Shown here piece after piece: positions 3,501 to 62,200 of a stretch of DNA of 64,000 bases; positions within the stretch are counted from its first letter, which is position 1; every line of letters starts with the position of its first letter. A program made the translations under genes and the position numbers. The notes under the pieces were generated by a model. That model was not told the DNA's origin and made no database searches. It saw only the letters and a program-made list of their open reading frames with translations. The stretch is from Liolophura sinensis (Eukaryota; Mollusca; Polyplacophora; Chitonida; Chitonidae). The DNA lies in contig NC_088295.1 of NCBI RefSeq assembly GCF_032854445.1, forward strand, positions 6,636,501 through 6,700,500, read 5' to 3'.

Positions 3501-6500
3501 GAGCGTGAGTGGAGGAAGGAGAGCGTGAGTGGAGGACAGACAGCGTGAATGCAGAAAAAAGAGCGCGATTGGACGAAAAAGAACTTTAGTGGAGGAACGA
3601 GAGAGTGAGGAAATAATTTGATTGGTGGTTTATGCCGCCTGTAAGTGAAGGAATCCGATGGTTAGTGAAAGAATGACAGTGAGAGTGAGAAAGTGTGTGG
3701 AAGAAGAAGTCAAGGAATAAGTGTGTGAGAGAAGGAATCAGTGTTTTTGTCAAAGATTGATTTAATGGTTAGTTCGGATATTGCCTACTTTTTTTCTGTT
3801 ATTTTCTTTTCAGTTCAACGATTTTGAAAATGCTCTAAAGTTTTCCCGGTGGGCTTTTGAAACATGTATGTATAAATAAAGTATCATGAGTTTATATACA
3901 CACACGCACTTTCCTCCAAACACACCATATATTTATATATTACTTATTCTTCTTATTGTAATGCCTTAGTATTTTGCATAAAGGATTGAATTTCAAATTA
4001 AAATCGAGAGAGCTGTTTTATTCATTGTTCCGAATAACATTTCCATTTAGGTCAATACGGAGACCATTTAGGTCAATATGGAGACCATTTAGGCCATTTA
4101 GGTTCAGACAGGGACAAATTAGGTCCTCGAATGATGACTCCGTTTTAATAGCCCATACTTGCGTTTAATTCTAAATCATTAACATGAGACACCTAAACTA
4201 AACTAACAAGAGACACGAAACAAGGAAAACAAGAAAAAGAAGAAATATTCATGCGTCTCTCTGAATACCAGATGTCCTTTTTCTGTTCGGTAGCTTGTAC
4301 TAATAAAGGGATTCAGGTACGAGTTTATACAGTTGCTGGGCAACAGACAACGGTTCCCCTAAATGTTGTACCTGATCAACACCAAGAACCAAGCTGAAAG
4401 CCATCGTGCATTGACATGTCTTACAGCAACCCTACTACATATGTTGTTATTCATATAAACAAAGAAATCCGGCTTTGGGAACCAGTTGTCTTCACACTAC
4501 GAACTTCCATATTCCATATATCCATATTTAACATTTTCTTTCGCAATGTCTTCAGATTCTTACGACGATAGAGTTCGTGACGTTCATGCCGATGTCCAGC
4601 GAAATATTGATGCGTTGAGATTTGGTAAGATGGAAATGCCGCCTCCAGCGAATCCAGCAGAGTTTGATGAGGAGTACGCTGCTCTGTGCCGTGGAGAAGT
4701 CGACTGGGTAAGTCGGGCACAACGGGGCTAGTAAACAGCTTGATAATAATGTTTTTGATGGAACTTGCCTGATTGCTGAATTTTAAGGAAGGCTAATTTT
4801 AGTGTTGAATTCCCCGTGGTTGAACGGTTGTTGTGTGTCACGGTGTCAAATACATTTCTGAAGGATGCAGGTCTTTCCTTAACTGCGTGTGGCATGACGT
4901 GTTGGACAGTTCGAAACCTTGAAGCCGTAGCTTATAGAACAGTATGTGTATACGTACGGTTTAATTAGAAAACTGTATGGCATTTGACACCGTTCATACT
5001 TAGAGGTGAAGGAGGTACATTTCATGTACAGTTCATATTATTAACTGACTTAAAACCAGTGTGATGTCCGAATTTGTAACACCCGAAACGAATGAGTTTG
5101 TTCACATCAATGCGGTATCAGCATTCTATAATCTGAATACACAGAGTTGTCCGCATCGAGAACAAGAGCAGATACATATTGATATGGACACGGAGAGAGG
5201 ACACGGACACACACACGGCCCCGCACATGGACATGGGCGCGGTAAAGAATAAAGCGACGTATATGAACTCGGATTGTACACAGGGATGGCGAGCGCTCCA
5301 TTTCCTTAACTGTCTGTACGAAACGAAACATCTTCTCCCTAATGAATGAAGAGGGAGCCGTAACAAAGTGATTAAGGTGTTCGTCTTTCACTTTCTAGGA
5401 CACAATGTGCAGATTCAAACCCGGGTACATTTGCACGAAGCCCGCTTAACGTTACGAGCACGTAACTACTATGGCAACCAACATTGTAAGCATTACGTTG
5501 CCATGGCCGTTACGTGCTCTTAACGTTAAGTGGGCTTCGTGCAAGTGGGCCCAGGCTGTAAAAAGAGAATTTGTAGATTTCCCGCTTGTACCACTCGTCA
5601 GGCCAACATTGCATACCTGTACGTGACGTGTGGAGGAAAGTTCCGCCTGCGTATTCTGGTTTCCTCCTTCCACAAAACTAGCTGTACTTATAAAATCTTG
5701 AGAGTGGCGTTAAGTAACAATTAACAAAATAAAAACAATAATGTATTATTACTGGCATGCTGTTGTGTGTTGTGACAGACAAACCAGTACATATCGCAAG
5801 GGCACTGCATCGTGCGGACAGACTCCGTACCGTATCGCCTTGTGAAGCAGGAGATCCTCAGCTTTGACCCATTTATCTCCCTGTTCTATGATGTCCTCTC
5901 CGAAACAGAAGGAAATAAATTCAGGAATGCAGCCAAAGAAAATGTAAGTTTTATTTTATATGAACATACACACCGTTCATCAGTGAAAAAAAACCTGAGC
6001 AACTGTGTCAAGCATATCCATCATAGTGCTCGCTTTAGAAACGGTGTCTGAACGGTGTATTTATTTGATTGGTGTTTTACGCCGTACTCAAGAATATGTC
6101 ACTTATACGACGCCGGTCGACATTATGGTGGGAGGAAACCGGGCAGAGCCTGGGGGAAATCCACGACCGTCCGCAGGTTGCAGTCAGACCTTCTAACTTA
6201 CGGCCGGAGAGTAAGCCAGAATGAGCTGGACTTGAACTCACAGCGACCGCTTTGGTGAGAGGCTACTGGGTCATTGCGCTGCGCTAGCGCGCTAACCAAC
6301 TGAGCCACGGAGGCCCCCTCTCCCGTAAATGTGGAACCCAGTCTGATATACAAGTGTACATTTAACAACACTTTTGTACTTTTTGCAGTTATATAGAGCA
6401 ATGGTTGGAAACCCGTCGGAGGCAATCACGTCAGAAGTTAGAGTGGGACAGCTGTAAGTTTAGTCTTTGAGGGTAGTGTCATATCTGCACGGTATCCGAT

Positions 6501-6510
6501 GTTATAATAT

Positions 6511-6541
<31 letters not shown>

Positions 6542-9500
6542 TTTGATTGGTGTTTGACGCCGTACTCAAGAATATTTCACTTATACGACGGCGGCCAGCA
6601 TTATCATTCCCATTTACGACCGGAGAGGAAGCCAGCATGAGCTGGACTTGAACTCACAGCGACCACATTGGTGAGAGGCATCTGGGTTATTACGCTGCGC
6701 TAGCGGCCCTCCAATGTTATAATAGAACAGCTGTAAGTTCAGTCTTTCAGCATACTGTCATATCTACACGGTATCCGGTGTTATAATAGAACAGCTGTAA
6801 ATGCAGTCTTTCAGCATACTGTCATATGTCTTCCAAGCTATAATAGAACACCTACAAGTTGTGTCATTTTGGATACTGTCACATTTGGATGGAATCCGGT
6901 CATGTGGTATATGAGTCCTTACATTTGGGATACTCCCAGTTCAGCATCGTATCCGATGTTGTGAGATAATATTTGTAGGGCCTGACATTTGTTAGACTGT
7001 CTTACCTGTGTGACACTCGATGTTGAGGTAGAACAGCCGTAAGTTCTTTTATTCGTCGATCGAGGGTAACACTATTTACTATTATGTGTAAAATATTGCC
7101 GTCCTGAACTTTTATTTCGTAGACTATCTCAGTTGATCACATTATGAGATATCATTTACCAGAACTTGGCTGGATGACTCTGAACCTTCCATCAAGAAGA
7201 TCTCGGCTCGCGTGATGGATATCACGGGATTAGACGTGACCATGCGAACAGTACAGTCTTCCTCGGAGTCATTCCAGGTAAACATGATTTCAGTAACTCC
7301 GTTTATTTTCTATTTAAACTGGAGAGTGCTGATACCGTGATAATGTTGTTGAGTCGAAAACTACGACGTGTCGCTTGCTCAGTCAAAACCTTGTATACCA
7401 ATTCTCATGTTTGTAATTAGTGATAAAGCTGTAAAGTTTCGCTCTCAGTATTGAGTTGCATGTTTATATCTCCCAGTAACGACTTCATAATCTCTGAAAA
7501 TTAAAGTTGGATTTAACCTCAAGAAATGAGCTTTGTCGCTCACTGAATGTACAATTGTTGATTACATTTTTGTTGATTTTGTCCATAATTCTTCCAAGCA
7601 TTTTCTAAACGTCCACCTAACATTCGGTGCTCCTATCATAGCAGTGACATTGAGAATTGTTGTATGATCCACTCGTGTTTCCAGGAGTTGATATTGTCAT
7701 CTTCCTATTTTCCATTTGCAGATCGTCAATTACGGTATAGGTGGCCATTACGAACCACACACAGATACATATAGTGTGAGTGATACATAGACTATATACG
7801 TGGCATAAAATAAAACTCAGCATCTTCCTTACCGAAAACAATGGAAAGACCTGGTAAAAACCTACAACAGCACATAGGGTCGTATTGGGTAGGATATAAG
7901 TATCCTACGTTTCGGGCTGCGATCATTTCCTTAATTCCCAACAGTATACTAGACATTTGATTACACTACATTCGTAGTCAACAATAACTTTTAAGATGCA
8001 CCTACGTGTACCACACGTTTCACGTAGGTGTCAATTCCTAAATTGCTCGGCAGTAATGAATCATTACTCTTTGCCCTTGACATTTTACAATCACGCCTGT
8101 AAACACATAACTTACCATCATTGCCGTCAAAGGTTCATCATTACATTATTGCAGTCCGTAATTGTTCCAATGTCCTAGTCAACTAATCGTTGTCTCCTTA
8201 TCTAAGCCATTCGATAATTTCCCCATTATAACAACCCCATTATAACAACTTCCAACATTGTGCTATCATAAAAGTATTTTGTCACCCTTCCATTATTATA
8301 ATCAACACAAGTCATCACACAAGTCCCTATACACCGTTGTCATGAATCATCCACCATAGCACCAACATACAAATCTTGCTGGAACCTTATACACCGTTGT
8401 CATAATTTATCCACCACTGTAGCAACATAACCAACATACTCTCTGGCACCCTATACCGTTGTCATCATTCACCCACCATTGTACCGACATACAAGTCTCT
8501 CTTGCACCCTCTACACCGTTGTCATCATTCACCCACCATTGTACCGACATACAAGTCTCTCTGGCACCCGCTACACCGTTGTCATCATTCACCCACCATT
8601 GTGTCAACATACAAATCTTTTTGGCACCCTACACACTGTGATCATAATTCACACACCATACAAGTCTCTCTGGCACCCGCTACACCGTGATCATAATTCA
8701 CACACCATACAAGTCTCTCTGGCACCCGCTACACCGTTGTCATCATTCACCCACCATTGTACCGACATACAAGTCTCTCTTGCACCCTCTACACCGTTGT
8801 CATCATTCACCCACCATTGTACCGACATACAAGTCTCTCTGGCACCCGCTACACCGTTGTCATCATTCACCCACCATTTTATCAACATACAAATCTTTCT
8901 GGCACCCTACACACCGTAATCATAATTCACACACCATACAAGTCTCTCTGACACCCTCTACACCGTTATCATCAATCACCCACCATTGTACCAACATATA
9001 AGTCTCTCAGGCACCCTACACACCGTTGTCATAATTCACCCACCATAATTGTACCGACCTACAAGTCTTTCTGGCACCCTACATACCGTTGTCGTAATTC
9101 ACCCACCATACAAATCTTTTTGACACCCTCTACACCGTTGTCCTAATTCACCCACCATAGTACCAACATACAAATCTTTCTGACACCCTCTACACCGTTA
9201 TCATAATTCACCCACCATAGTACCGACATACCAGCCTCTCTGACACCCTCTACACCGTTATCATGATTCACGCACCATAGTACCGACATACCAGCCTCTC
9301 TCACACCCTCTACACCGTTGTCATAATTCACCCACCATAGTACCGACATACCAGCCTCTCTCACGCCCTCTACACCGTTATCATAATTCACCCACCATAG
9401 TACCGACATACCAGCCTCTCTGACACCCTTTACACCGTTATCATGATTCACGCACCATAGTACCGACATACCAGCCTCTCTCACACCCTCTACACCGTTA

Positions 9501-11247
9501 TCATAATTCACCCACCATAGTACCGACATACCAGCCTCTCTCACGCCCTCTACACCGTTGTCATAATTCACCCACCATAGTACCGACATACCAGCCTCTC
9601 TCACGCCCTCTACACCGTTGTCATAATTCACCCACCATAGTACCGACATACCAGCCTCTCTGACACCCTATACACCGTTATCATAATTCACCCTGCCGAG
9701 TACCAACATACAAGTCTTGCAGTTATCGTATTATTATTATTAAAGTCAACCCATAAATATTATCGTACAAGTCTTCCTGCTATACAGTTTTTAAGATGTC
9801 AGAGGTGTTGACACTCTGTTTTGTCTTACAGAACAGATCAGTTTTAGCAGATGTACCAGACTTTTTACAGAACACGGGGGATCGATTAGCCACTTTCCTA
9901 TTTTACGTGAGTATACAAGTGTTACAAGTCACGATGACAATGTTTCACGTCCAGTCAGCCACACTAGTTTTCCATTCTTAGAAGTCACAAGTCAAACACT
10001 TGTTTGAGTTTGTTAATGCTGTTACGCAAGCAAAACGCGAAACAAAAAATCGTTTCATGAAACCGGGCGCTGATTTCACTAACTTTCTACTTTTACTGAC
10101 CAATTTATTAAAACACACTAGCCTGTTGAATAACTGCCTAGCTCCATGAATGTGTTATGTTGCAGCTGGGCGACGTTGTTGAAGGTGGCTCTACAGTGTT
10201 CCCACGTGTCGGAATTCAAGTTCCCGTTGTTAAGGTTTGTATACAGTGGAAGTCTGTACAGTTATCTGTACAGCTGCAGTCTGAGCAATCGTTCACACGC
10301 ATTTCTGTAAACCAGTATCTGTATATTTGTTGTCACACTTGATTGCCTTTACTGTGTAGACTGTGCAAACACCTGTTAATACCTATCTGTTTGAGTTGGT
10401 GTGTATGCCAAAATCCCCAAAAGTGAGCAGGGAAAGTTTCAGAAACTGACAACTTTTTTAATAGACATTTGTAAGATGTGCACAGTACTCCATATATACT
10501 CTAAGCATTCTTCCCCCGCAATACTTATATGCCTTTAATGATATACATCCTCTAAATGTTTATCTTGAGTGACTTCGCGCTGCTGCATTTACATTGTCTT
10601 ATGTTGCAGAACGGAGCAGCTTTCTGGTACAACCTGAACCGTGCAGGTGAAAACGATGAAAGGGTCACACACGCCGGCTGCCCCGTGCTGCTCGGACAAA
10701 AGTGGGGTGAGTACAAAATTCAAATCCAGGTAAAAGTGAAAATAATATGTGCTCACTATACATCGCCGTCAATTACATTAATCGTGACGTCAGTCTGTAA
10801 CTGACCGTGAAATAGCTGGAACAAGCACTGTCCAAGCACAAGCCTTCTGGACATGCACAACTGTATTAGTTTAGTATGAAGCTTGAACTTGTCAAGCAAA
10901 AACCGACGTTCGAGGCACATATCGTGTACTGCAGCTCTGTACGAGTTTAGAGTGCACTTCTGATAAGATCGCACGTTTCATATAATTAGGCTGTAACGTT
11001 TCATCTACATATTTGGAAAATGCTGTTTATTCAAACAAATATTTTGTCACGCAGGTTCGTATCAATATATTTCAAAATGTTAGCCTGTGTATATACATGC
11101 ATTACTCATCAATATGTTTTTTTCCCATAACCAATGTTAAGGATCTGATTTTGTTTTTCAGTGGCAAACAAGTGGATCCGAGAGCATGGCCAAGAGTTTC
11201 GACACGGGTGTGGTTTGACCCCCACCACACCCCACCACACATCATGA
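511..11247 (+). CDS. P4HA: Prolyl 4-hydroxylase subunit alpha (5' partial, 12 exons)
   Basis: This is the catalytic alpha subunit of collagen prolyl 4-hydroxylase, an ER-lumen Fe(II)/2-oxoglutarate dioxygenase that hydroxylates X-Pro-Gly prolines with PDI as beta subunit. Exons are 511-656, 1816-2141, 3814-3865, 4556-4707, 5779-5943, 6389-6453, 7163-7277, 7722-7775, 9832-9906, 10166-10234, 10610-10706 and 11162-11247; all phases match across GT/AG introns. They encode 466 aa. The family is usually about 520-550 aa, so the signal peptide and N-terminus lie upstream of the window. The first two exons carry the P4Ha_N dimerisation region (FVEHPLGAFHLLKTYSK). Exon 4 has the LCRGE motif at the domain junction. 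Catalytic residues are present: HTD in GGHYEPHTD (iron), then the second iron His in VTHAGCPVLLGQKW with the 2-oxoglutarate Lys ten residues later. The last coding exon runs into a 76-bp array. For exon 8, donor 7776 (GTGAGT) was chosen over 7774 to keep frame. Confidence 0.93.
920..1350. repeat. Degenerate minisatellite, ~27-36 bp unit, P4HA intron 1
   Basis: Imperfect copies of AGTAAGCTCACATGACA followed by a TAGCTGTAGT-like segment repeat through the first visible P4HA intron. The cleanest copies are at about 1235-1320. The array is intronic and touches no exon. The rest of this intron (657-919 and 1351-1815) is AT-rich, with nothing recognised. Confidence 0.7.
2150..3625. repeat. Purine-rich minisatellite with GTGAGT in each unit, P4HA intron 2
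   Basis: About 1.5 kb of ~24-28 bp units of the type GTGAGTGTGATTGGAGGAAA, starting about ten bases after the exon 2 donor at 2142. The + strand is almost pure G/A with T. Most units carry GTGAGT or GTGAAT, so the array holds dozens of sequences matching a consensus 5' splice site. Variants with an extra GAGAAAAGAGAGC block alternate with the basic unit. The long C/T-rich reading frames on the - strand are by-products of the composition. Confidence 0.9.
5350..5545. mobile_element. Foldback (hairpin) element with tRNA-like B-box flank
   Basis: The arms at 5431-5467 and 5508-5544 are near-perfect inverted copies (TTGCACGAAGCCCGCTTAAC against its complement), and a second inverted pair (TGGCAAC / GTTGCCA) lies inside. 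Together they give a hairpin of about 114 bp in P4HA intron 4. Just left of it, GATTCAAACCCGGG at about 5411-5425 resembles a Pol III B box, so a tRNA-derived short element is possible. No target-site duplication was identified. Confidence 0.6.
6057..6318 (-). mobile_element. SINE-A, near full length, in P4HA intron 5
   Basis: Read on the - strand it starts GGGGGCCTCCGTGGCTCAGT, a tRNA-like head with A- and B-box-like segments. It continues through the conserved body (GAGCTGGACTTGAACTCACA on the + strand) and ends TACGGCGTAAAACACCAATC with a short A/T tail. Full length is about 260 bp. It lies between P4HA exons 5 and 6. Confidence 0.85.
6446..6860 (+). repeat. Exon 6 donor-site minisatellite of P4HA, split by a SINE
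   Basis: The junction of P4HA exon 6 with its intron (ACAGCT|GTAAGT, exon end 6453) and the next ~55 bases recur at 6727-6786 and, more degenerate, at 6787-6850. Each has the order AACAGCTGTAA, CAGTCTTTCAGCATACTGTCATAT, then a GTATCCGGTGTTATAATA-like segment. The unit is about 60 bp. A SINE-A copy (6509-6712) separates the first unit from the rest. The donor copies at 6734 and 6795 are potential decoy splice sites; the second has mutated to GTAAAT. Confidence 0.75.
6509..6712 (-). mobile_element. SINE-A, internally deleted, in P4HA intron 6
   Basis: It begins (+ strand) with about nine TTTA repeats and GATTGGTGTTTGACGCCGTA. It jumps from the GGCCAGCATTAT segment to CCCATTTACGACCGGAGAGG, missing about 70 bp of the body seen in the 6057 copy, and ends in the CGCTGCGCTAGCG head region. 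It sits between copies of the exon 6 donor minisatellite. Confidence 0.8.
8330..9720. repeat. 60-bp minisatellite, P4HA intron 8
   Basis: About 22 copies of a ~60-bp unit (CACCCTCTACACCGTTGTCA followed by TAATTCACCCACCATAGTACCGACATAC-type sequence). There are two subtypes: the left half has AAGTCTCTCTGGCACCC and some units shortened to ~47 bp, while the right half (9190-9660) is homogeneous with CCAGCCTCTCTCAC. The homogeneous half suggests recent local expansion. Sixty is a multiple of three, so reading frames stay open on both strands without coding meaning. Confidence 0.92.
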
Positions 11248-11935
11248 TACACGACACAAAATTAGGCCAACTATTCCCACACTGCGGCGATGTGACTCCG
11301 ACCAAACCCGATACACATAATGATACACGACACCCAATTTGACCAAGAGTTCCCACATCGCGGCGTTGTGACTCAAACCAAACGTCAATACACATAATGA
11401 TACACGACAGCCAATTTGGCAAACAGTTCCCACACTGCGGCGTTGTGACTCTGACCAAACCCAATACACATAATGATACACGACACCCAATTTGACCAAG
11501 AGTTCCCACATCGCGGCGTTGTGACTCAAACCAAACGTCAATACACATAATGATTCACTACACCCAATTTAGCAAACAGTTCTGACATTGCGGCGTTGTG
11601 ACTCCGACCTAACCCGATACACATAATGATACACGACACTCAATTTGGCCAAGAGTTCCCACACCGCGGTGTTGTGACTCCGACCAAACGTCAATACACA
11701 TAATGATTCACGACACCCAATTTGGCAAACAGTTCTCACACTGCGGCGTTGTGACTCCGAACCTAACCCAATACACATAATGATACCACGACACTCAATT
11801 TGGCCAAGAGTTCCCACATCGCGGCGTTGTGACTCAAGCCAAACGTCAATACACGTAATGATACACGACGCCCAATTTGGCCAAGAGTTCTCACAACCGC
11901 GACGTTCGGTCCCCTACCAACCATCATATTCCACG
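11230..11935 (+). repeat. 76-bp array continuing the P4HA C-terminal codons into the 3' UTR
   Basis: About nine 76-bp units (CCAAGAGTTCCCACATCGCGGCGTTGTGACT then CCAAACGTCAATACACATAATGATACACGACA-type sequence). The unit core is homologous to the last coding exon of P4HA at 11193-11224: GGCCAAGAGTTTCGACACGG in the exon against GGCCAAGAGTTCCCACACCG in units. The exon's terminal codons (GQEFRHGCGLTP) are thus the edge copy. Most of the array would lie in the 3' UTR. Confidence 0.85.
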
Positions 11936-15376: not shown

Positions 15377-15378
<2 letters not shown>

Positions 15379-18261: not shown

Positions 18262-21200
18262 TCAGATTTCAGCGTTCACCAGCATTGTTCCCTGTCCATT
18301 GTATGTTAAAACAATCTCTGCGGGATGCTGCTCCCAGGGCTCTCCGTCCACTTGCATTGGAGCATTGCCAGTTAAACTTATCTGCAAAGTACAAATGCTT
18401 TGTATTTAAACAAACCAGTTAAGTAATTCTTCACTCTGTAACATACATGTGATAAGGAACATCATTAGCTTAACCTGGCACAAAACACCAGCATACATGT
18501 ACCTTGACCTCTTAGTCTATTACTTACACACCCACTTCAATTCAGTTTATCACACATCCATAACAACTACAACATGGAATTCATACAACGCTCACTTAAT
18601 TAATTTTTAAAAAGATACAAAAATGTCACTGTCTAATACATAGGGGCAAACCTTTTATGTTATTATTAGATTTCATTGGTCCAATGCCAGCCTCTTCCGA
18701 AAGGCCCTCATGAATGGACAAAGACGGCTGTGGGAAGAACCTTCCAATTAGACAGATTTGATCTTTACCTCACTAATCCTCACGGACAGAAGTGACCACT
18801 CACCTTGACAGAACGACCTTGGGCCAATTTTAGTGGAGCTGCCAGACCCACCTGGAGTTGAGCGATGTGGAAGGAAGAATAGAGGCCCATCACCTCTAGC
18901 AGGCCATCATCAAACCTGGAAAGTAAAATGAATTACAGTTCAGCACATTGCTCCAATAAGCATTTATAATGCCACAGTAAAGCATAACTAATGACAGCTC
19001 ACCACAGTGCTCCAATAAGCACATTTAGTGCCACTGTAGAGTGAGAACAATGGCTGATTAGCACATTGCTCCAATAAGCACACTTAGTGCCACTGTAGAG
19101 TAAGAACAATGGCTGTTTAGCACAGTGCTCCAATAGGCACACTTAGTGCCACTGTAGAGTAAAAACAATTGCTGATTAGCACAGTGCTCCAATAAGCACA
19201 CTTAGAGTCACTGTACAGTAAGAACAATGGCTGTTTAGCACAGTGCTCCAATAAGCATTCATACTGCCAGTGTAAAGTAAGGAAAATACCATTCTCAGCA
19301 CAGCTCAGCACAGTGCTGCCACAAACACACCTATTACCACTGTAAAGCAACAGGAATAACAGCTCAGCTCACAGCTTCCACAAACATATCTTGTGCCAAT
19401 GTAATGACAGCTCTGCTCACTGCTGCACGAAGCACACCTATTCCCAGATATGACAGCTTGCCTCCAATGAACCTGAAGATACATGTACTGAAGTTCATGT
19501 TACCTAATTCCAAATCTTAACAGATTTATCTACATGTACCTTAGGAGATCCTGATAAGGTATGTGTAGTCAGAGAGATTTGTGTCAGCTAAACAGTTTAC
19601 CGTGTAAGAATTTAATACTAGTTGCCTAAATTTTACTGGCTTGAAAGTTCTCTCTATAATGTTACTTAGTTTCACAATTTTCCATCGAGTATCAATCTCA
19701 CCTGACAGTGAGGCATAGTTAGACGGTCTCACTTCTCTACACTTTAGCATTTACCTTCATAAGTATGCCTGGTCAAGAAGAAACTATCCTTAAACTGACT
19801 GTGATAAGGGCATTATGGGTAATTTCACAGCAGATTTCATGTTAGTACATGTACAAGTAAGTAGCTTACCGTGGGGGAAAGAATTGATCACCATCCCCTG
19901 GGGTCCAGGGCTTACAACCACCACCCCAGCTGCTGATGTTCAGAACAACCACCCCCTCCAGCTCTGGCAGAGTCAGTTCCTTCCCATCCACCTCTACCTG
20001 TAAACATAACAATACACACCTGAGTACACACAATAACACGACAGACAGGTATATCACAACCAGTTCCTTCCCATACACCTCTACCTGTAAACATAACAAT
20101 ACACACCTCAGTACACACAATAACACAACAGACAGGTACATCACAACCAGTTCCTTCCCATACACCTCTACCTGTAAACATAACAATACACACCTGATTA
20201 CACACAATAACACAACAGACAGGTATATCACAACCAGTTCCTTCCCATACACCTCTACCTGTAAACACAACAATACACACCTGATTACAGACAACATTAA
20301 CACAACAGACACATACATGACAACCTGCTCTTTCCCATCCACCTTTACCTGTAAACACAACATTACACACTTGATTACAGACAACAATAACAGAAAATAC
20401 AGCCTCAAAAACCACCTCCTTCCCATCCACAAAGGAAACAGTTCTTACCTTTAATTTCTTCTGGAGATTTTTGCACTCTCTCTCAAGAACATCTTTGGTG
20501 CCATATGTAAAGTAACAAAACTGAAAGAGATGAACAAGAATGTATTCATACATATAACTGAACAATCGACATGTAAAAGTGTTATAAAATACCCTCAATA
20601 CCCTCTAGCATAGGTTGGTTGTTTAATTCTGGAATTCTGGTGGCTTTTCCAGGGGTAAAACTCTCAACATATATCATATTACTTCAACCACCTCACATGT
20701 CAAAGTTCAGCCTTAAAGGCAACTTATCCAAATTAACCTTTTGATTATTGTTATAATTTATCTCGAGTAAATTTACCAACACCAGGGCTTCACAGGAAAT
20801 ACATTTGCTTCAGTCTAGGCACAGAAATTACCTTAAGATACACCTCTTCCTCATTATAACAAGCTTCATTAAAACACGTTTCAAAATAACACAATCACAA
20901 ATGTGTCCTCGAAATGTGTGCTGTTTTTGTACACATTTGTAGAAGTTTTTAAAAGCTTCAGTGAAGAAAACTTCAGAGTTTGTAAATATCGTGCACTCAG
21001 AAGCTTGGTTATCATGTAATTATTACAATAAAAACCATGAATTTATGTTGATTTGGCCTACAGTTAACATGCAGTATCACACCATATTATACACGCCACA
21101 GGCTATCCACAGGTAACAAACTTCATTTGTCATGCTTCGCTTAAAGCATGGAGGGTAGATCTGTCCCCAATCAACAGCGCTGTAATGAGGGAGAGGTCTA

Positions 21201-43300: not shown

Positions 43301-46300
43301 CACATCCGCTTCATGTCTAAAACCGGCTTAATATCGGTATTTTATACCAGTATCATGCTATTCTCCCACTGGCCACGACTATCTTCACATCTGCTTCATG
43401 TCTAAAATCGGCTTAATATCGGTATTTCATACCAGTATTACACTACTACTCTCCCACTGGCCATGACTATCTTCACATCCGCTTCATGTCTAAAATCGGC
43501 TTAATATCGGTATTTTATACCAGTATTACGCTACTACTCTCCCACTGGCCACGACTATCTTCACATCCGCTTCATGTCTAAAATCGGCTTAATATCGGTA
43601 TTTTATACCAGTATTACGCTACTACTCTCCCACTGGCCACGACTATCTTCACATCCGCTTCATGTCTAAAATCAGCTTAATATCGGTATTTTATACCAGT
43701 ATTACACTACTACTCTCCCACTGGCCACGACTATCTTCACATCTGCTTCATGTCTAAAATCGGCTTAATATCGGTATTTCATACCAGTATTACACTACGA
43801 CTCTCCCCACTGGCCACGACTATCTTCACATCTGCTTCATGTCTAAAATCGGCTAATATCGATATTTTATACCAGTATTACGCTACTACTCTCCCCACTG
43901 GCCACGACTATCTTCACATCTGCTTCATGTCTAAAATCGGCTTAATATCGGTATTTTATACCAGTATTACACTACTACTCTACCACTGCCACGACTATCT
44001 TCACATCTGCTTCATGTCTAAAATCGGCTTAATATCGGTATTTCATACCAGTATTACGCTACTACTCTCCCACTGGCCATGACTATCTTCACATCCGCTT
44101 CATGTCTAAAATCGGCTTAATATCGGTATTTATATACCAGTATTACGCTACTACTCTCCCACTGGCCACGACTATCTTCACATCCGCTTCATGTCTAAAA
44201 TCGGCTTAATATCGGTATTTTATACCAGTATTACGCTACTACTCTCCCACTGGCCACGACTATCTTCACATCCGCTTCATGTCTAAAATCAGCTTAATAT
44301 CGGTATTTTATACCAGTATTACGCTACTACTCTCCCACTGTCACGACTATCTTCACATCTGCTTCATGTCTAAAATCGGCTTAATATCGATATTTTATAC
44401 CAGTATTACGCTACTACTCTCCACTGGCCACGACTATCTTCACATCTGCTTCATGTCTAAAATCGGCCTAATATCGGTATTTTATACCAGTATTACACTA
44501 CTACTCTCCCACTGGCCACGACTATCTTCACATCCACTTCATGTCTATGACCGGCTTAATATCGGTATTTTATACCAGTTTTACATTACTCTCCCACTGG
44601 CCACGACTATCTTCACATCTGCTTCATGTCTAAAATCGCTTAATATCAGTATTTTATACCAGTATCATGCTACTCTCCCACTGGCCATGACTATCTTCAC
44701 ATCTGCTTGATGTCTAAAATCAGCTTAGTATCGGTATTTTATACCAGTATCATGCTACTCTCCCACTGGCCACGACTATCTTCACATCCGCTTCATGTCT
44801 ATAAACGGCTTAATATCGGTATTTTATACCAGTATCATGCTACTCTTCCACTGGCCACGACTATCTTCACATCTCCTTCTTGTCTAAAAATGGCTTGACT
44901 CCGGACTCGACTCCTAATGCGGCCTTCTAATTGTTCTGGTCATGTCTTGGCATGTCGGCTTTATACTTGTTGAATCTTGTAAGGTCAGCAAACTTGGCCA
45001 GGAATTCACAGTTATGATACTGTCTTTGGTTGTGTCGAAATTTAATCCTGCAATTATCTTGATTCGGTCACAAAAATCAGCATTTGGTCTGGGTTTGTCG
45101 TCATTAAGTCGTGTTGTGCCGGGACACTTTTTTGGACAAGAGTGACCATGACCTTTTACAACTATCCCCACTGTCATTCCATGTTGTCCAGCCAAACAGA
45201 CAATGTGATGGTAACAATGGAAATGGCGTCAAAGGCACCAAAAATGTCATTTCCAGTCAGGTCTTGAAACAGTGTTAAAGGTCTTGAACACTTGTGTTCA
45301 GTCCTGGAACTTTGATTGCTGAGTGACCACGATGGGCTACGACATCTGGGTCAAGAACATTCTGGATGTCGTAAACACCCGTGAATATAGTTGTGGGCAG
45401 TGGGAGGGACTGACGTCTGTGGTGGTAAGACCCACCTCCTAATGACCCAGTGGGAGGGACTGACGTCTGTGGTGGTAGGGTCCACCTCCTAACCACATAC
45501 CTGGATGACGCCCATGACCTCTGGCACATAGAACTGTAACATGTTCTGAACTCCATTCTTCAAGGTAACCACTGAGCTTGGGCAGCTGGTGCATGAGCCC
45601 TGCATCTTCAGCTTCACAATACCCTCCTCAAACCCCTGGCAATAATACACACATCACAGAATAGTAAGCACACAGAACAGCTAGTACACAAGCCCTCCTG
45701 ATTCAGCTTCACCCTTCTCAGACCCCTGTAATAATACACACATCACAGAACGCTAAGCAGACAGAACAGCTGGTACACAAGCCCTCCTAATTTACCTTCA
45801 CCAACACCATCCTCAAACCCCTCTAATAATACACATATCACAGAACGGTAAGCAAACAGAACAGCTGGTACACAAGCCCTCCTGATTCACCTTCACACCT
45901 TCCTCAAACCCCAGTAATAATACACATATCACAGAATGTTAAGCAGACAGAACAGCTGGTACACAAGCCCTCCCTGATTCAGCTTCACAACACCCTTCTC
46001 AAACCCCTGTAATAATACACACATCACAGAACGGTAAGCAGACAGAACAGCTGGTACACAAGCCCTCCTGATTCACCTTCACACCTTCGTCAAACCCCTG
46101 TAATAGTACACATATCACAGAATGTTAAGCAGATATAACAGTTTGGTACACAAGCCCTCCTGATTCACCTTCACACCTTCGTCAAACCCCTGTAATAGTA
46201 CACATCACAGAATGTTAAGCAAACAGAACAGCTGGTACACAAGCCCTCCTGATTCACCTTCAAACCTTCCTCAAACCCCTGTAATAGTACACATCACAGA

Positions 46301-49300
46301 ATGTTAAGCAGACATAACAGCTGGTACACAAGCCCTCCTGATTCACCTTCACCACCTTCCTCAAACCCCAGTAATAATACACATATCACAGAACGGTAAG
46401 CAGACAGAACAGCTGGTACACAAGCCCTCCTGATTTAGCTTCACAATACCCTCCTCAAACCCCTGTAATGGTACACATATTACAGAATGGTAAGCAGACA
46501 AATTAGCTGGCACACAAGCCGGCCATATCCAAGTTCAAATTAGCCTCATGTTTGAGTGGCATTAAGATGTTGGGAAGGAAGTACACTGGGAAAGTCTTTC
46601 TTCTGGATATACAATATCCAGGTCATTAAAAGGGAAGGAAAACATAAAAATGATGCCAAAATCAGATGGAGTGCCAAAACTTATTTGCAAATATGATCTT
46701 TAATAGTTTTTTGGGATTTTTTTTTTCACGAGAAAAAGGGTATTTGAAAATATTTTTGTATGGTGGGTATTTGGGACCAACTTTTGATATTTATCGTTGT
46801 TGCATAAGAATGTTCTAAATAAGGATGTAATGCTTGTCTAAAAAAATTGATTTGAATGTAAATTTGTTGTTATTGTTGTTGTTAATATTTCTGAACATAT
46901 TAAAAATATAGATATGATCCAAATTGAGGTAATACATTTGTTAGCTGAAAAGAACAAATTCTAGTGCAAAAATATTTATTAAACCTGTGTTACATCCTCA
47001 TTTATGACATTATTAAACAAAGACTATAAATACCAAAAGGTGGTCCCAAATACCCAAAATACAAAAATTATATGTAAGTGTCTTTTTCTCCTTAAGAAAA
47101 ATTGGAAAAAATACTAAAGACCACATTTAGGAATAACTTTTCGCACTCTTTCATCTGAACTTTTTGTCATTTTTATGTAGTTACTTACATCATTATTACT
47201 TTTGATGTTAGTAACTACATCGAACCGTCATGTTAAAGAAAATAGCTACAGGGTTCATACAGAAATGGGGTTTTAAAATTCCACGATATTTCATGATTTT
47301 CCAGTCCATCAGTACTAAATTCCATGATATTTCTTAATTTTCCAGTCCATTATTACAAAAACTCCAGGATGTTCCATAATATTCCAGTCCATCATTACTA
47401 AAATTCCTGGGTGTTCACCTGTAAAATTCAAACTGTCGAATGGGTGTTTGGTGGGACTGTTAGTGCAATTTGATGGAACAATAAAGTTTGGATTGTTTGT
47501 GTATGGTTTTTCTATGCTTTCAACATTATTTCAGTCATATCACTTTATTTAACGAGTGTTAAACATCATACTCAATGAATCAAATGCCTATGGTTTCTGT
47601 CTGTTCTACCAAAGCTGCAATATTTAAATAGTCATGCAAAGCATGACAATAAAACAATATACAGTTCTATTTTTACTGACAGGAAGGCCCAAGCAAGTAA
47701 CATTAATTCATGTAATTCTAGTAATATTAAATGAAACCCTTGGCATGGCCTACATCAGGTGACAGTACAAATGAGGAAAATATATTTATTTATTTATTTG
47801 ATTCTTCTCTGACGCCATACTCATCAAGATTTCACTTCATGAATGCTGCTGGTAATTAAGACTAAAGACTGGAGCAAAACGGATTACCTAGAGTAAACCA
47901 TTAACCTTTTGCAAATTACAGACAAACTACCCACATGCAACACTCAGAAAAATGTATACATGTTGTTTTGTTTTTTTTTGGGGGGGGGGGGGTGGGGGTG
48001 GGGGTGGGGGGGATGCTGGAAGACAAGTGATCTTAATGAACAATACAGTATGCAACTGGCTACACAAGTATCATAAACTGCTTGGCCTTACTGTCACTAA
48101 GGCCTCACAATGGTACTAATAATAACAATATACCACGATTTATTAACACTTGTTTAATATTCTCATCCCTGAAGTTGAATAGAAGAGAATCCATGGTGAT
48201 TCATCCCAGATACAAAGGATGTTTTATATAAGGTCTCTAGAATATCTTCTGCTGTAGCTCATCGCATGAATTCAGAGCAAGTGTCTAGTGGTGACAATGT
48301 TGCCTTCCCACAACCGAATATGAACATCCATCTATTTGTTTTGTGTCCTCCTATTTTTGCTTTCATCAAACAAAATCACTTTCATTTTTATGTGAAATGA
48401 TGTCTCCCTCATCCTGCTGCACTGTCCATTCACACACATAAGTTACTATCCACACACAGTGTACATTTTACCATTCACACACAGTGTACATGTTACCATC
48501 CACACACAGTGTACATTTTACCATCCACACACAGTGTACATGTTACCATTCACACACAGTGTACATGTTACTATCCACACACAGTGTACATGTTACCATC
48601 CACACAGAGTGTACATGTTACCATCCACACACAGTGTACATGTTACCATCCACACACAGTGTACATTTTACCATCCACACACAGTGTAAATGTTACCATC
48701 CACACACAGTGTACATGTTACCATCCACACACAGTGTACATTTTACCATCCACACACAGTGTACATGTTACCAATCACATAAAGTGTACATTATACCATT
48801 CACATACAGTGGACATATTACCATCCACATACAGTGCACGTTACCATTCACATACAGTGGACATATTACCATTCACACACAGTGTACATGTTACCATCCA
48901 CACACAGTGTACATGTTACCATCCACACACAGCATAAATGTTACCATTCACACACAGTGTACATGTTACCATCCACATACAGTGTACATGTTACCATCCA
49001 CACACAGTGTACATGTTACCATTCACATACAGTGTACATGTTACCATTCACACACAGTGTACATGTTACCATTCACATAGACTCACCATGTAAATAATGT
49101 CTCCCCCATCTTCCTGCACAGTGGGACGAATCCTAGTGTCAATTAGCTCCTTAATCATTTGTACAGTCTCATCATCTTCACAGTCTGCAGCTGAAACAAC
49201 AATCAGCAAAGGACACTAGTCATTCACAGGGCCTGTGTGCTCATGACTGATCACATAATTTACACAGTGACACTATCTGAAGCATAACAATCGGTAAAGG

Positions 49301-51230
49301 ACACTAGTCATTCACAGGGCCTGTGTGCGCGCGATTGACCACACAATTTACACAGTGACACTTGCTGGAACATAACAATCGGTAAAGGACAACAGTCATT
49401 CACAGGGCCTGTGCGCCCGCTATTGACCACACAATTTACACAGTGACACTAGCTGGAACATAACAACAGGTACAGGACAACAGTCATTCACAGGGCCTGT
49501 GTGCTCAGAATTGATCACATAATTTACACAGTGACATCAGCTGCAACATGTATGAATACACCTATTATTAAATATGAAATAATGGTGAAATATAAATTTT
49601 AAAGCACTGAGATTTATCCTAGTTCCCAGCTGCCACGTTTACCTGTTACTGAGTTCCAGTACCAAATTCTACAGAGAAATCACAAACTGTACAGAGTTTA
49701 TCTGTATTGGAGTTCCCAGCCAGGGTCTGCAGATTTTACCTTTGTCAGAGTTCCCAGCCAGACTTCAAAGTATTTACCTGTACTAGAGTTTACAGCCAGG
49801 CTCTACAGATTCTCACTGTATCAGAGTTCCCAGTCAAGGCTCTACAGATTTTACCTGTGTCAGAGTCCTCTGTCACAAATGTTGAAGTATTTACATGTAC
49901 CTGAGTTCCCATTCCCTAACATGACAGTCTTTCCTAGCTGCATTTGGGTTTGCAGTCATAAACTACAGTCTTTCCCTGCACCAGGTCATAGTCACAGACT
50001 CAAGTATTTACCTGTGTCAGCTGGAGCCTCCTCCTCAGACATCACAGGTAAACCAGTTGCAAAGAAATCCATAATGGTGGCAAAAATCTGAGGCTTTAAC
50101 ACCTGCCAATCTACATCATCATGAATCTAAAATACAAAGGACTTACATGTATTAAACATTAATGGGTACACCCAAATGTGCAGGATAAGAAAAGCAATGA
50201 AATTACAAATTTCATAATAGTAACTGGTGATGCAATAAGACTGTAAGCTATGAGAGTGTGGGAGAAATCCTACATGCTTGAGAGAAATCCCTACAGGCAA
50301 AAATGCATGTACAACACATCTGACATGATCATAACATACCCTTGTTACAGTAATGAAGTCTGTGCCAAAGAAAATACCTCTCACTCCATCTATTCGAAAC
50401 AACTGCCTGTTGATAAAGGAAGAGCACATATTAAAACAACAGAATATTAAGCTATACACAAAATACTTGAAACCACAATGCAGTGGAAGTCGTTTCTAAA
50501 AAACACTCTGTGCTGATTCATTTAAAGACATATTACCTTACTTACAAATGCAATACAATAAACAAAGACAGTTTTAATAAAGTTTTAACTGCGTCGGTGG
50601 CCTATTGGTTTAAGTGTCCGCTTTGAAGTCAGGAGACCCTGGGGTCAAACCACGTCAGGTTATTCCAAAAATTACAAAAATGGTACTTGTTGCTGCCTTG
50701 CTTGGCACCCAGCACTGAGAGGTTACAACAAGGAAACATGACTGGTTGGCCCGATGTCAGTATAATGTGACTGGGTGGGGTGTTACGTCTATGTCTTCAG
50801 CATTATACTTCAGTGGCAGCAGCACTATGGCAGCATGGACTCACCCTGCCACAAGAAGACACAATATATGAACACACATCTAATGACTCGTTGACATCAT
50901 ATGACGGACAAATTGTTAAGTACGACATTAAATCCCAAGCACACATATACATATTTAATAAAACTCACTATAATTACACAACCAACTGACGCCTTATTTC
51001 TGCTGAAAGCAAACTGGTGATTAACCTATACACATTATGTGAATCTCATACTATCATATATTAAGTATGGCATAGTAACAAAAAAGTCACTGACTTTGCT
51101 AAGGGTGAGATCTGTGCAGATTTGGCCGTGGGAAAGTCCCTGGTGCCCGACTCAAGAATGGTTCTGCCTGGGATAAACTTAAGACTGTTTGGATTTGGAG
51201 TTTCCTGTGTCTGAATGAAAATCTGTCGTT
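40388..51230 (-). CDS. NFU1: NFU1 iron-sulfur cluster scaffold, 5' exon(s) uncertain
   Basis: NFU1 is the mitochondrial scaffold that passes [4Fe-4S] clusters to targets such as lipoyl synthase and complex II. Exons on the - strand: 51230-51095, 50406-50340, 50126-50012, 49190-49087, 45635-45501 and 40459-40388 (stop at 40388); 208 aa with consistent phases. The Nfu N-terminal domain is clear ([44 protein letters not shown]), and the NifU-like domain carries the cluster-binding Cys pair in GSCTSCPSS. The C-terminus is [21 protein letters not shown] further upstream exon, 51717-51599, fits in phase (ending LLRDDVRLSQILLQ, basic and Ser-rich like a presequence) but is tentative, and the start codon is not located. 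Donors at 51094 and 51598 read GTCAG, unusual at +3. Four exon borders merge with tandem arrays. Confidence 0.93.
40985..44885. repeat. 88-bp satellite, ~44 copies, in the last NFU1 intron
   Basis: Head-to-tail units of 88 bp: CTAAAATCGGCTTAATATCG, GTATTTTATACCAGTATTAC, GCTACTACTCTCCCACTGGC and CACGACTATCTTCACATCTGCTTCATGT. The sequence is homogeneous with many single-base indels, which may be partly real and partly long-read error. The array fills 3.9 kb of the 5.0-kb intron between the CxxC exon and the last exon. No exon sequence was recognised in the unit. Confidence 0.95.
45400..45492. repeat. Two-copy ~54-bp repeat next to the NFU1 CxxC-exon donor
   Basis: AGTGGGAGGGACTGACGTCT + GTGGTGGTAAGACCCACCTCCTAA occurs twice in tandem, ending about 9 bp before the donor at 45500. 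It is intronic. Confidence 0.8.
45600..46515 (-). repeat. ~91-bp array of NFU1 CxxC-exon acceptor copies
   Basis: About ten units of ~91 bp. On the - strand each carries a pyrimidine-rich acceptor (TATTACAG), then GGGTTTGAGGAAGGTGTGAA and GTGAATCAGGAGGGCTTGTG + TACCAGCTG. These match the first ~55 nt of the real exon (45635-45501: [18 protein letters not shown]), including the codons around the cluster-binding CxxC. The unit at about 46428-46470, furthest from the exon, is almost identical to it over GGGTTTGAGGAGGGTATTGT. All copies precede the real exon in transcription order. Confidence 0.9.
46643..47177. mobile_element. Foldback element with ~180-bp terminal inverted repeats
   Basis: The left arm (46643-46830: CATAAAAATGATGCCAAAAT ... 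GGGTATTTGGGACCAACTTT) is the diverged inverted copy of the right arm (about 47000-47177: ACCAAAAGGTGGTCCCAAAT ... TGTCATTTTTATG). About 170 bp of AT-rich spacer lies between; there is no coding capacity. Non-autonomous DNA transposon (MITE/foldback) structure, inside an NFU1 intron. A separate 17-bp-arm hairpin (ATGTAGTTACTTACATCA and its complement) sits at 47175-47220. Confidence 0.7.
47270..47410. repeat. ~52-bp tandem repeat, 3 copies, NFU1 intron
   Basis: Units containing AATTCCATGATATTTC, a TTTTCCAGTCCATCA-type segment and a TACTAAA junction recur at about 47277, 47328 and 47380. Confidence 0.75.
47780..47870 (-). mobile_element. SINE-A tail fragment
   Basis: TTTATTTATTTATTTGATTC, then TCTGACGCCATACTCATCAAGATTTCACTT, matches the 3' end of SINE-A in reverse orientation; the rest of the element is absent or too diverged. 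Confidence 0.65.
47966..48013 (+). repeat. Poly-T/poly-G tract with G-quadruplex potential
   Basis: A T run followed by thirteen or so G, then repeated TGGGGG/TGGGGGTG blocks to 48012. Several runs of four or more G within 40 bp could form a G-quadruplex on the + (non-template) strand of an NFU1 intron. Confidence 0.85.
48430..49095 (-). repeat. 25-bp minisatellite abutting an NFU1 exon donor
   Basis: About 25 units of GTGTACATGTTACCATCCAC + ACACA (25 bp). The last unit runs into the exon 49190-49087. On the - strand the exon end TTTACATG|GTGAGTCTATGTGAATGG aligns with unit sequence AACATGTACACTGTGTGTGAATGG, so the true donor seems to be the degenerate edge unit. Since 25 is not a multiple of three, every frame through the array is open in turn. 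Confidence 0.85.
49185..49560 (-). repeat. ~88-bp array of NFU1 exon acceptor copies
   Basis: Four units of ~88 bp (CAATCGGTAAAGGACACTAG, TCATTCACAGGGCCTGTGTG, then CACACAATTTACACAGTGACAC). On the - strand each contains GTTATGTTCCAG|CTAGTGTCACTGTG, aligning with the real acceptor and exon start GTTGTTTCAG|CTGCAGACTGTGAAG at 49190. About 14 nt of exon plus the acceptor are copied. Confidence 0.78.
49620..50022 (-). repeat. ~40-60 bp array of NFU1 exon donor copies
   Basis: Irregular units contain, on the - strand, CTCTGACACAGGTAAAATCT or CTCTAGTACAGGTAAATACT. The real exon (50126-50012) ends GCTGACACAG|GTAAATACTT. Copies of the last ~9 exon bases plus a GTAAA donor appear near 49738, 49777, 49855, 49893 and 50010. 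Some copies have lost the G of GT. Confidence 0.75.
50592..50952 (+). mobile_element. SINE-B, longest copy, with tRNA-like head
   Basis: Starts with a tRNA-like segment (GGTGGCCTATTGGTTTAAGT; B-box-like GGGGTCAAACC at about 50641), then the SINE-B body (TTGGCACCCAGCACTGAGAG, ATGTCAGTATAATGTGACTG, GCAGCATGGACTCACCCTGC) and the TACGACATTAAATCCCAAGC end. About 360 bp, in an NFU1 intron. It shows that the shorter copies at 12400 and 21372 are variants lacking part of the left half. Confidence 0.82.
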
Positions 51231-54402: not shown

Positions 54403-54410
54403 GTTTCAGA

Positions 54411-56762: not shown

Positions 56763-56768
56763 AATAAA
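56763..56768 (+). terminator. Poly(A) signal of the C10orf53 homologue
   Basis: AATAAA in TGTCAATAAATAGTCC, 267 nt after the stop codon and followed by a T/G-rich stretch (TTCTTGTTGTTGG at about 56786). It is a good canonical 3' end. Confidence 0.7.
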
Positions 56769-56789
56769 TAGTCCTTGCAGAAATTCATT

Positions 56790-57980: not shown

Positions 57981-57983
57981 TCC

Positions 57984-57989
57984 TTTATT
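57984..57989 (-). terminator. Candidate poly(A) signal for OGDH
   Basis: TTTATT on the + strand reads AATAAA in GTTGAATAAAGGATA on the - strand, about 1.28 kb after the OGDH stop codon. Another TTTATT occurs near 58568 and would give a shorter 3' UTR. Confidence 0.4.
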
Positions 57990-59263
57990 CAACAACTAAC
58001 ACCCTCCAGTCAACCACACAACATGAATGACACAAGAGTTTTTATGGCTTTTCATATAAAAATGAACTACAGCTGTCTACTACCTGCAGTCTCAGCTCAC
58101 ATAATAATAATAATAATCAACATAATTATATCAACACCTGAAGAGGTAAGCTCTGGCTAACAGACAAGTGTGTGATTGCTACTGACTACTCTGCCCACCC
58201 CCAATTATATAGCAACTGTAGGGACAACATACAAATGTAAGACAAACAGTTGTGTTTGTGAAATTTACCAGGCGCAAAACCAATCCAGATCCTCTACAGA
58301 CCAGCTTATCTTTGGTTAATAAGGCAGAAAGGTGCCAAAAGCACTGAATATCGGTAAATTTATGACTTTCTGAATTTATGATTAAGTGCATAGGCGACAT
58401 CTCCAAATAAAGAACTGTTTGTGCAATTTTATAAACTCAGTACATCTAGACCACAGTGTAAGCTGAAGTGATCAGACTTGTGGGGTGTTTATCACAGGCT
58501 TTATGTAGGACAATTAGAAGCAAAATACAACGTTCACAATTATAGAAAATTTACATGGCTTTAGGCAATTTATTCAAAAACATGATGCATGTATTTAAAA
58601 TAAAGTTTCTAGGCTACCTGATAAAATCACAGAAACAACCAAAAACATGCTACATAAAATTCCTGAGAACAACTTGTTTTCACATGCAGTTACTGAGTCT
58701 GGCCAGCCAAAAGAGTTGTCACTACACATCTGAGGATCACACAGTACAAACCATTATACACTACTGTACTGGAAAGTTACACACCAAAACACTTAAATGT
58801 CTGTTGTCTTCGAAACACTTTTAAAAGTACCAAACACCGAAACAATCCATAATTCAATACCTAAATCCATATTTTACAGCAAACATGGGACTCTTTCATG
58901 CTAAATCATCTTAACTAAAGAAAAAAAAGTCATTCTTTCAAAAACAGTTACTGCGCGATATCATTACCGGACATCACACAATAGTTCCAGCTGTGTCAAT
59001 GAATCGGATGTAACGTATGGTATTAGCACACAACCACTGTACACACTACAACATGTCCACTGAAATGTTACAGATGTGCTAAAAAAGCTTCCTAAAATAG
59101 GAAATATTTTCAGATCCAAATAAATCCATCTCCATTTACATGTTCATATTAAACATTCCACTGTTGCATCAATAAATAAATCTGTGAATATAAATATTGC
59201 AGTGTTAAAACTTTAGCTGTTGATTCCATCATGGGCTACCTTCTCTGTCTGCCTAGCTTAACT

Positions 59264-62200
59264 CTATTGTAGAGATATTGAGTCCCGTAAGAGGTTTGCC
59301 AGTTCTATTAAGTGCATCTGTTTATTTCCTGTTGCAGCTGCGGCAGATGCAAAACGTCCTGCATATCTGAAACACATCAGATGTACAATGTATTTGATAT
59401 GTGCACATAATAGACATCATTATGATACCTGTGCTATGAATTTAAATCAAAGCAAGACAGAAAGTTTGGCCTGGTACTTATTTTCATGCAATCAAATTCA
59501 ACCAGTTTTTGAATTAGTTTTATTTCCAATTTTCTTTTTGTCAGAATAGGAAGAATCAGAGACAGACCCATGGCTTAAGATGTGTAGAATTGCTCAAACA
59601 TGAAGTTTACAGCCTTCAAAACAAAACAGGGGGCCTCTGTGGCCGAGTGGCTTAGCACGTCAGTGCTGCGCAATGACCCAGAAGCCTCTTATCAATGTGG
59701 TTGCTTTGAATTTAAGTCTTCCTCTCGGACTGTACATGGGAAGGTCTGCCAGCAACCTGCAGATGGTCATGGGTTTCCACTGGGCTTTGCCCGGTTTCAT
59801 CCCACCATAATGCTGCCCGCCGCCGTATAAGTGAAATCTTCTTGAGTATGGCGTAAAACATGAATCAAATAAATAAATCAAACACAAACTTTTCACATTC
59901 AATGTATGGTGTAAGAGTAAACTGTAAAGTAGGTTATCACACACACTTAATATCCACATTATGAATATTCCTCATAGCAACCACATTGTGGATAAATATC
60001 TATGTATAGATGGACAAAACACTGATACTCACTGTATTTCCTTGTCCACTTCCATCTTCTGCAAAACAGTTCTCATGCGAGGTTCCACATAAAACCAGGC
60101 CCCCATGTTTTTGTGTTCCTCTTGTGCCCAACAGAGCCGTGCCTTTGGGTACTTGCTGATCTCAGCCTTGACTAGGTCAAATGGGAATGGGGAAATCTGA
60201 AACAGACAGGTCTCAGGTCAGATGGGGAAATGTGAAACACACAAGTCACAGGTCAAATGGTGAAATGTGAAACAGGCAAGTCATACGTCAAACAGGGCAT
60301 TTAAAAATATACAAGGAACAAGAGAAATCTGAGACAGGCAAATCATAGGTTAAAAACTGTGATTAGAAACAGACAAGGTACAAGGGAAATCTCAGACAGA
60401 CAAGTCATAGGTCAGCTGTCACAGGTCACAAAGAATGATCAGAGATAGACAAGGAACAAGGGAAATCTGAGACAGATGAGTCACAGGTCAACAGTCACAG
60501 GTCAAAAGGAGTGATTATAGATAGACAAGGCACAAGAGAAATCTGAGACAGATGAGTTGCAGGTAAACCCATCACACGTAAAAAAAAAATGATCAGAGAT
60601 AGACAAGGCACAAGAGAAATCTCAGATAAACAAGCCACATGTCAAACGTCAAACAGTGCATTTACACATACACAAGGGAAATCAGAAACAGTCACAGGTC
60701 AGCTGTCACAGGTCAAAGAGAGTGATCATAGATAGATAAGGAACAGGGGAATTCTGAGACAGACAAGTCAAAGGTCAAGCTGGGTGAATAGAGACAGAAA
60801 AGGTACAAGGGAAGTCTGAGACAGATGTCACAAATCAAACGCACCTGTAGTCTGTAATTATTTGCAGCTAGGTCCTGACAACTGTAAGTTTTGATTTTAA
60901 ATGACGACGACGGTAGCTCACAAGAGTACAAGAGGGAGTAAGTTGATAGTGAAGCCTATGATCACTACTTTCATGATTTATAATCAACTCAGGCTTACGA
61001 TCCCTTTGTGCAAACAACCCTAGGTAAATAATTATTTAATTTATAAAGATAATGAAGTTGTTTCATAATTATACTGACAAATCCCTACAGTTTATTCAGA
61101 ATTCCAATCTACAGAAAATGTGCAATACTGTTCTTGTTGACAGATCCTGCTGTGATGTTAGCTATCTCTCCACATACCTGTTCAACCCTGGCTATGGCAA
61201 TGCTCTCCACTCTCTCCTTCTTTTCTCTCTCCTTCACCAGATCGTAGTACACTCGGCCTGTGCAGAAGATCAGTTTCTTCACCTGGTCGGGGTCCTGAGA
61301 AGCGGGGCCTTCCTCTGGGATCAGCCGACGGAATTTTGACCCCTCCGACATCTCATCAAAGCTAGACCTGGCCTCAGGCAAACGCAACAAGCTTTTTGGT
61401 GTCATGACTATAAGCTGGGGAGAAAGGAATCGTCAAGGTCAGTAACATTTCACACAAGGTCTATATGCTAGTGTCACAATCTTGGGACACTTTCTCACAG
61501 CAAACTGTGATACAGTTTTGGATACACTAATGACAATAATGTCATATAACCACATGTGCTGAAGTACACTTTTTGTAACACTATTTTGAAATAAATAAAT
61601 AAATATGTTTACAAACAATTACAAACTAAAATGACTTACATTTTCCTTTGGTATATGTCACTATCTCTGTTTCATGCAAACTATAACGAAATACTTCTTA
61701 AGGGAAGAAAAAAGCCAAAGACTTACAGGTTTTCTAAATGGAAGAGCAATTTGTCGTCTCATGGCATGAAAGAAATTGGCCGGCGTGGTGAAGTTACACA
61801 CAAACCAGTTGATCTCGTGCAACTGTTGCATTTCAAAGTTGGGGCCTTCAGGCTGGCAACAAAAATGTACACTGACTTCAGGCAACGAACTGGTAGCATA
61901 CTTAAGACAAACAGTAACTACACTGTATCTGATGACAATATATATGTACCTAAAGTACACTTATAGCATTTAACAAGCTAAAGATAAAGACAGCAGATAA
62001 AAGAAAAAGCTACACAAATACTAACTTTGACAGAGGATTAAGAATTAATTTTCATATTTTACTCTTGATCAACAACACAGTCCAAGTACTTACCATCCTT
62101 TTAAAACCTATCCAGGTTCAATTTTCTCACTCATCTCCTTGTTGCATAAGAGATCATGTAATCTGCTCTTGTCTTTTATGCTCGCATTCAAGATGAGGTT

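Follow-up and report, generated by a model that had tools for sequence, protein, structure and literature searches.

The window, by which we mean the whole 64,000-nucleotide stretch of DNA analysed here, comes from the chiton Liolophura sinensis (published as L. japonica; G000:C1:6636501-6700500), the genome of which was assembled from HiFi reads (609.5 Mb in 632 contigs). It contains the genes for P4HA, a DGKE-like diacylglycerol kinase (DGKE below), LRPAP1, NFU1, UPF0728 and OGDH, and tandem arrays make up about 25% of its length. The DGKE model has nine exons with a single open frame throughout, and exons B to J of P4HA also read in a single open frame up to the stop; for this reading the acceptor of P4HA exon E, which is absent from the border set described below, was added from phase. 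In both models the frame remained intact across the outer, real edges of the exons, which fits undisturbed splicing.

A total of 64 splice borders was curated in the six genes. For each border, 30 intron and 60 exon bases were aligned locally with a 1.5-kb stretch of the intron concerned, and 384 cross-gene alignments against introns of other genes served as control (best score, 31). Five of the 64 borders (7.8%) were crossed by an array that copied 10-53 coding bases together with the splice site, and a sixth array copied the coding end of P4HA across the stop codon. Array units were about 25-110 bp long. Donors and acceptors were both affected, in the window as well as in the independent genes described later. 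The original prediction had listed nine borders at which an array runs into the exon with its splice site. Six of these behaved as described, and the remaining three, all in NFU1 (50011, 49190 and 49086), were weaker, being merely reached by arrays with 0-9 coding bases copied. Its claim that the arrays resemble exon edges above background held: the crossed cases of the window and the independent sample scored 49-180, against the control maximum of 31.

Arrays across exon ends in the window

P4HA lies on the forward strand. The donor of its exon D (6389..6453, the exon 6 of the original prediction), whose phase agrees with the next exon, was crossed at 6453 with 17 coding bases copied (score 49). 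The array involved, with units of about 64 bp, begins within exon D and spans 6437..6846, and two copies were recognised by alignment and direct reading, at offsets 279 and 343. A TATT-rich, SINE-like interspersed repeat containing GGTGTTTGACGCCGTACTCAAGAATATTTCACTTATACGACGGCGGCC splits this array at about 6508-6718; its position within the array indicates that the array is older than the insertion. Further copies of the same repeat lie at about 6060, 51900 and 59780. At the other end of the gene, the last coding exon (11162..11218) has its end, GQEFRHGCGL and the stop, copied. About 32 coding bases recur at offsets 76, 153, 229 and onwards from the coding end at 11218, in an array of 76-77-bp units in the 3' UTR (11187..11906; called by TRF as 11237-11906 and extended into the exon by alignment), and the first unit is the coding end itself. 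The array predicted at this exon was thus confirmed, and the border it crosses proved to be the coding end rather than a splice site. The copied peptide GQEFRHGCG is conserved and aligns with human P4HA2 (prolyl 4-hydroxylase alpha-2, 7zsc). A separate large array in a P4HA intron (2339-3609) has units that repeat the perfect 5' splice consensus GTGAGT many times over, about 200 bases past the real donor at 2141.

DGKE, NFU1 and OGDH lie on the reverse strand. DGKE exon 7 (19870..19997) was crossed at its acceptor, 19997, with 24 coding bases copied at 96% identity (score 98); the TRF array of 87-bp units (19974..20384) holds four copies, all with the AG intact. Exon 5 of the same gene (22499..22612) was crossed at its donor, 22498, by ten copies of an 88-bp unit (21658..22537; TRF), with 39 coding bases copied (score 68). 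A possible further case, missing from the original prediction, is the acceptor of exon 8 at 18915, beside which TRF found an array of 59-bp units (18938..19281); these units align as far as the CAG, with a score of 28 that falls within the control range.

In NFU1, the acceptor of exon 6 (45501..45635) was crossed at 45635, with 53 coding bases copied (score 103), by an array of nine copies of about 90 bp (45583..46520; TRF, 45607-46520). The copied motif is conserved and aligns with the NifU-like protein HIRIP5 (1veh). Exon 5 (49087..49190) has an array at each end. At its acceptor, 49190, the array of 88-bp units (49198..49549; TRF) copied the splice site and no coding bases (score 37); at its donor, 49086, the array of 25-bp units (48442..49077; TRF) ends seven bases short, and the donor is absent from the unit. 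The donor of exon 4 (50012..50126), at 50011, is reached by a degenerate array (49690..50020; TRF, 49690-49866, with copies at offsets 158 and 236) that copied 4-9 coding bases (score 34). Near the 3' end of NFU1 lies a 3.8-kb array with 44 copies of an 88-bp unit (41068-44896), in which no exon similarity was seen. Between this array and exon 6, positions 45000-45410 resemble several places on other chromosomes at 71-90% identity, which indicates that they hold a dispersed repeat; related loci (L004-L008) were listed with 24200-24550 and 45000-46000. In OGDH, the acceptor of the C-terminal exon (PF16870; 60033..60196) was crossed at 60196 with ten coding bases copied (score 53) by a degenerate array of 35-76-bp units (60186..60850; TRF, 60186-60645, extended by reading).

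The copies bear substitutions and stops, and the copied exons retain conserved protein motifs. This indicates that the exon was the source of the array and not the reverse. Identity among copies ranged from about 76% to 100%, which shows that the arrays are of many ages. In five of nine arrays the inner copies were closer to each other than to the edge unit, clearly so in those at NFU1 exon 6 and DGKE exon 5, and this pattern was absent elsewhere, a mixed picture as regards escape of the edge unit from homogenisation.

Frequency of crossed borders in independent genes

An independent sample was drawn from genes picked regardless of arrays, all outside the window. Exons of kinesin, TCP1 and ALDH genes yielded 53 stretches (219.5 kb) with 174 predicted borders after correction, and three myosin regions, selected for how many exon matches were listed in them, irrespective of arrays, added 34 borders for a total of 208. 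The sample borders are predicted ones, and inspection by eye was limited to positives; on such inspection the donor at C8:53412069, the acceptor at C9:4628084 and the coding end at C11:29422443 were found to be wrong or misclassed predicted borders and were corrected or removed. Alignment hits at 1000 and 1994 of myosin locus L083 were assigned to duplicated alternative exons rather than arrays and left uncounted. The myosin exon there occurs as two similar copies in tandem, L083:896-1000 (...LEDQIVQANPVLEAYGNAKT...) and L083:1992-2087 (...LEDQIIQANPVLEAYGNAKT...), which are probably alternative exons.

Array units spanned the boundary at 11 of the 208 independent borders (5.3%, CI 3.0-9.2%), a count that includes the uncertain acceptor at C1:4562919. 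How many such cases should arise by chance depends on the array content; in the first 53 stretches, arrays occupied about 15% of the non-coding bases. With array content this high in the sample, and higher in the window, random non-coding points scored in the alignment test as one-sided array edges in 2.5% of cases in the sample stretches and 3.2% in the window. Array-rich introns alone thus predict that about 2-3% of borders are crossed, and the premise that chance arrays should rarely straddle coding sequence does not hold in this genome.

In the same alignment test 6 of 173 sample borders (3.5%) were crossed, compared to the 2.5% of random points, and in the window the 5 of 64 borders (7.8%) compare to 3.2%. 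A second test counted TRF array edges that fall within the terminal 60 bases of the exon, with the expectation taken from the edge density 100-900 bases into the intron; a short unit is unable to extend 60 bases into the exon, which makes this expectation generous. Over the 208 borders, 11 edges were found compared to 4.1 expected, a ratio of 2.7 (p 0.003; CI 1.1-4.6 from bootstrapping 46 gene groups). Much of the significance came from the myosin regions, in which three donors among 34 borders were crossed, and before these regions were added the ratio was 2.4 (p 0.02). The predicted overlap of arrays with exon borders above random was thus seen in this sample, and we consider a true excess probable, though a modest one.

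The excess is the main support for the view that exon borders are true hot spots, where arrays would be seeded by breaks or slippage due to transcription, R-loops, splicing or the shift in base composition. A preference of arrays for G+C was considered as a cause of the excess and not supported, as exon-free arrays have a mean G+C of 0.382, near the 0.374 of other non-coding sequence; this counts in favour of hot spots. On the other side, the point test in the first sample gave the small difference noted above, and part of the excess could come from constraint on one partner, which makes similarity fade more slowly: constrained edges would stay recognisable for longer and might raise the count. 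No array lay wholly inside the coding matches examined, about 14 kb; the 173 array bases found within this coding sequence all came from border-crossing arrays.

Breakpoints, coding ends and decoy splice sites

The share of the unit that is exonic had a mean of 0.47 in the independent set and did not differ from uniform (KS p 0.63), and no preferred distance of the breakpoint from the splice site was detected in that set. In the window set the exon share was skewed low (mean 0.23, KS p 0.036). Coding ends were also hit. One ALDH gene (G000:C11:29422443-29422616, L080) carries 79-bp repeats of its coding end, stop codon included, in the 3' UTR, and in the two cases, this gene and P4HA, the structure matches that of the arrays at splice borders. 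The involvement of coding ends and the lack of a preferred breakpoint distance argue against a splice-specific trigger, and hence against exon-junction sequence as the seed, the first of two options that had been put forward for these arrays. Both observations also weigh against hot spots at exon borders, an explanation that we consider unlikely overall.

The original prediction also held that the arrays produce rows of decoy splice sites, and they do. Among 133 copies that cover a border, 114 had an intact AG or GT, compared to 103 expected from mean identity, so that decoys are not purged. When scored with a position matrix from this genome, most decoy-bearing arrays contained at least one decoy that scored as high as the real site. 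Site strength alone therefore cannot separate the edge from its copies, and, if splicing is accurate, exon context would have to pick the edge site. In a CCT (TCP1) subunit gene (G000:C8:53405971-53406162; L045, L053), the exon end LVPGGGATEMALAQ with the donor GTGTGT recurs in 66-bp units that are in frame, mostly without stops, and have intact donors. Use of these decoys would insert 22-residue repeats, which makes this gene a candidate for exon extension.

The slight retention of dinucleotides above expectation, together with the many decoys that score level with the real site, might suggest that selection keeps the rows, for instance as regulators of splice-site choice or of expression. 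The excess is small, however, and alignments that stop at the site bias it; moreover, the copies drift, and the unrelated housekeeping genes concerned have the structure in common and no sequence. Selection for decoys is thus very unlikely to account for the arrays.

Relation to amphioxus mirages and origin of the arrays

The original prediction knew of no named system of this kind. Tandem repeats of exon-intron boundaries have, however, been named "mirages" in amphioxus, where they were described in the globins BflGb6 and BflGb9 (PMC3087553) and noted again in PGBD5, Adh and troponin C (PMC3902484); PMC3087553 also cites Canestro 2002 for a mirage in Adh3. Mirages are also characterised by undisturbed mRNA splicing, by differences in length between haplotypes, by somatic instability and by an edge unit that escapes homogenisation. 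Those of amphioxus, like the chiton arrays, are minisatellite-like duplications across the boundary, at either exon end, with copies of the AG or GT, in unrelated genes, and their unit sizes (10-72 and about 150-160 bp) overlap those found here. By these structural features, as read from the genome, the chiton arrays are mirages. They differ in occurring in a chiton and not a cephalochordate, in also involving coding ends at stop codons, and in having a sampled rate (5.3% of borders) and a random control. A literature search that covered few subscription papers turned up no earlier mention of such arrays for any mollusc, which is weak evidence. Mirages are common in this chiton, and their frequency is probably somewhat above chance.

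We consider it probable that these mirages arise by near-random tandem duplication, tolerated at exon ends and purged within coding exons. The near-uniform exon share in the independent set, the involvement of both site types and of coding ends, and the array-free coding interiors all point to near-random duplication filtered by coding selection. An array would be seeded when a local tandem duplication, presumably through replication or repair slippage, chances to extend across the end of an exon. Additional copies would be inserted on the non-coding side, intron or 3' UTR, so that the outermost unit would still be the exon's own edge, with its splice site or stop codon, and the frame would be preserved. 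From then on the array may grow and change by slippage or unequal exchange while inner copies drift. Purifying selection would remove duplications that lie wholly within coding exons. Duplications in introns would be tolerated, and so would those at exon ends, since the original edge is not displaced, as long as splicing goes on selecting the edge beside the intact exon. Here we assume that the spliceosome chooses the edge site correctly. Tolerance of arrays that preserve the edge, the second option put forward originally, fits best. Two observations count against near-random duplication: the 2.7-fold edge excess, which pure random placement does not predict, and the low-skewed exon share in the window set. 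The 2-3-fold border excess may reflect local fragility, or longer detectability of arrays with a conserved edge.

Intron gain by tandem genomic duplication (the Rogers model; potato RdRp, PMC4974935) likewise involves a duplication with a splice signal and leaves exon-like sequence beside the exon, at intron ends, and it has been suggested that new introns can come from mirages (PMC3087553). In that model, coding sequence around a proto-splice site is duplicated to make a new intron, whereas in the chiton an existing border has been multiplied, in an intron that is old or at least pre-existing. Each unit contains both intron and exon, so that the border already existed when the duplication occurred. 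The hallmark of intron gain, in which the intron ends duplicate coding sequence across the new intron, was not found in these arrays, whose units are one-ended and contain intron; every array tested had its similarity at one intron end, in many copies. An origin of the arrays in recent intron gain is thus highly improbable. Internal tandem repeats in human segmental duplications (PMC2812944) also represent minisatellite expansion at exon-intron boundaries, but these are largely exonic and alter the coding sequence or create novel introns, whereas the chiton coding sequence is intact. Chance similarity, low complexity or an assembly artefact, for which the array-richness of the genome and the three borders merely reached by arrays might speak, is the least credible explanation of all, given the cross-gene control scores and the presence of diverged copies, which cannot be assembly duplicates, in a HiFi assembly.

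In the literature searched, mirages have been a curiosity of amphioxus genes only. That a mollusc has them at about 5% of the borders sampled points to a general by-product of array-rich genomes, in which gene finders and RNA mappers may misplace exon ends. It is conceivable, although we hold it unlikely, that exon ends in this lineage are genuine duplication hot spots, tied to transcription or to the change from coding to non-coding sequence; thousands of borders would then carry rows of decoys equal to the real site, among which the spliceosome would have to choose by exon context. The chiton mirages offer natural test cases for how the spliceosome ignores near-identical adjacent sites, and they provide material from which introns and exon extensions can newly arise.
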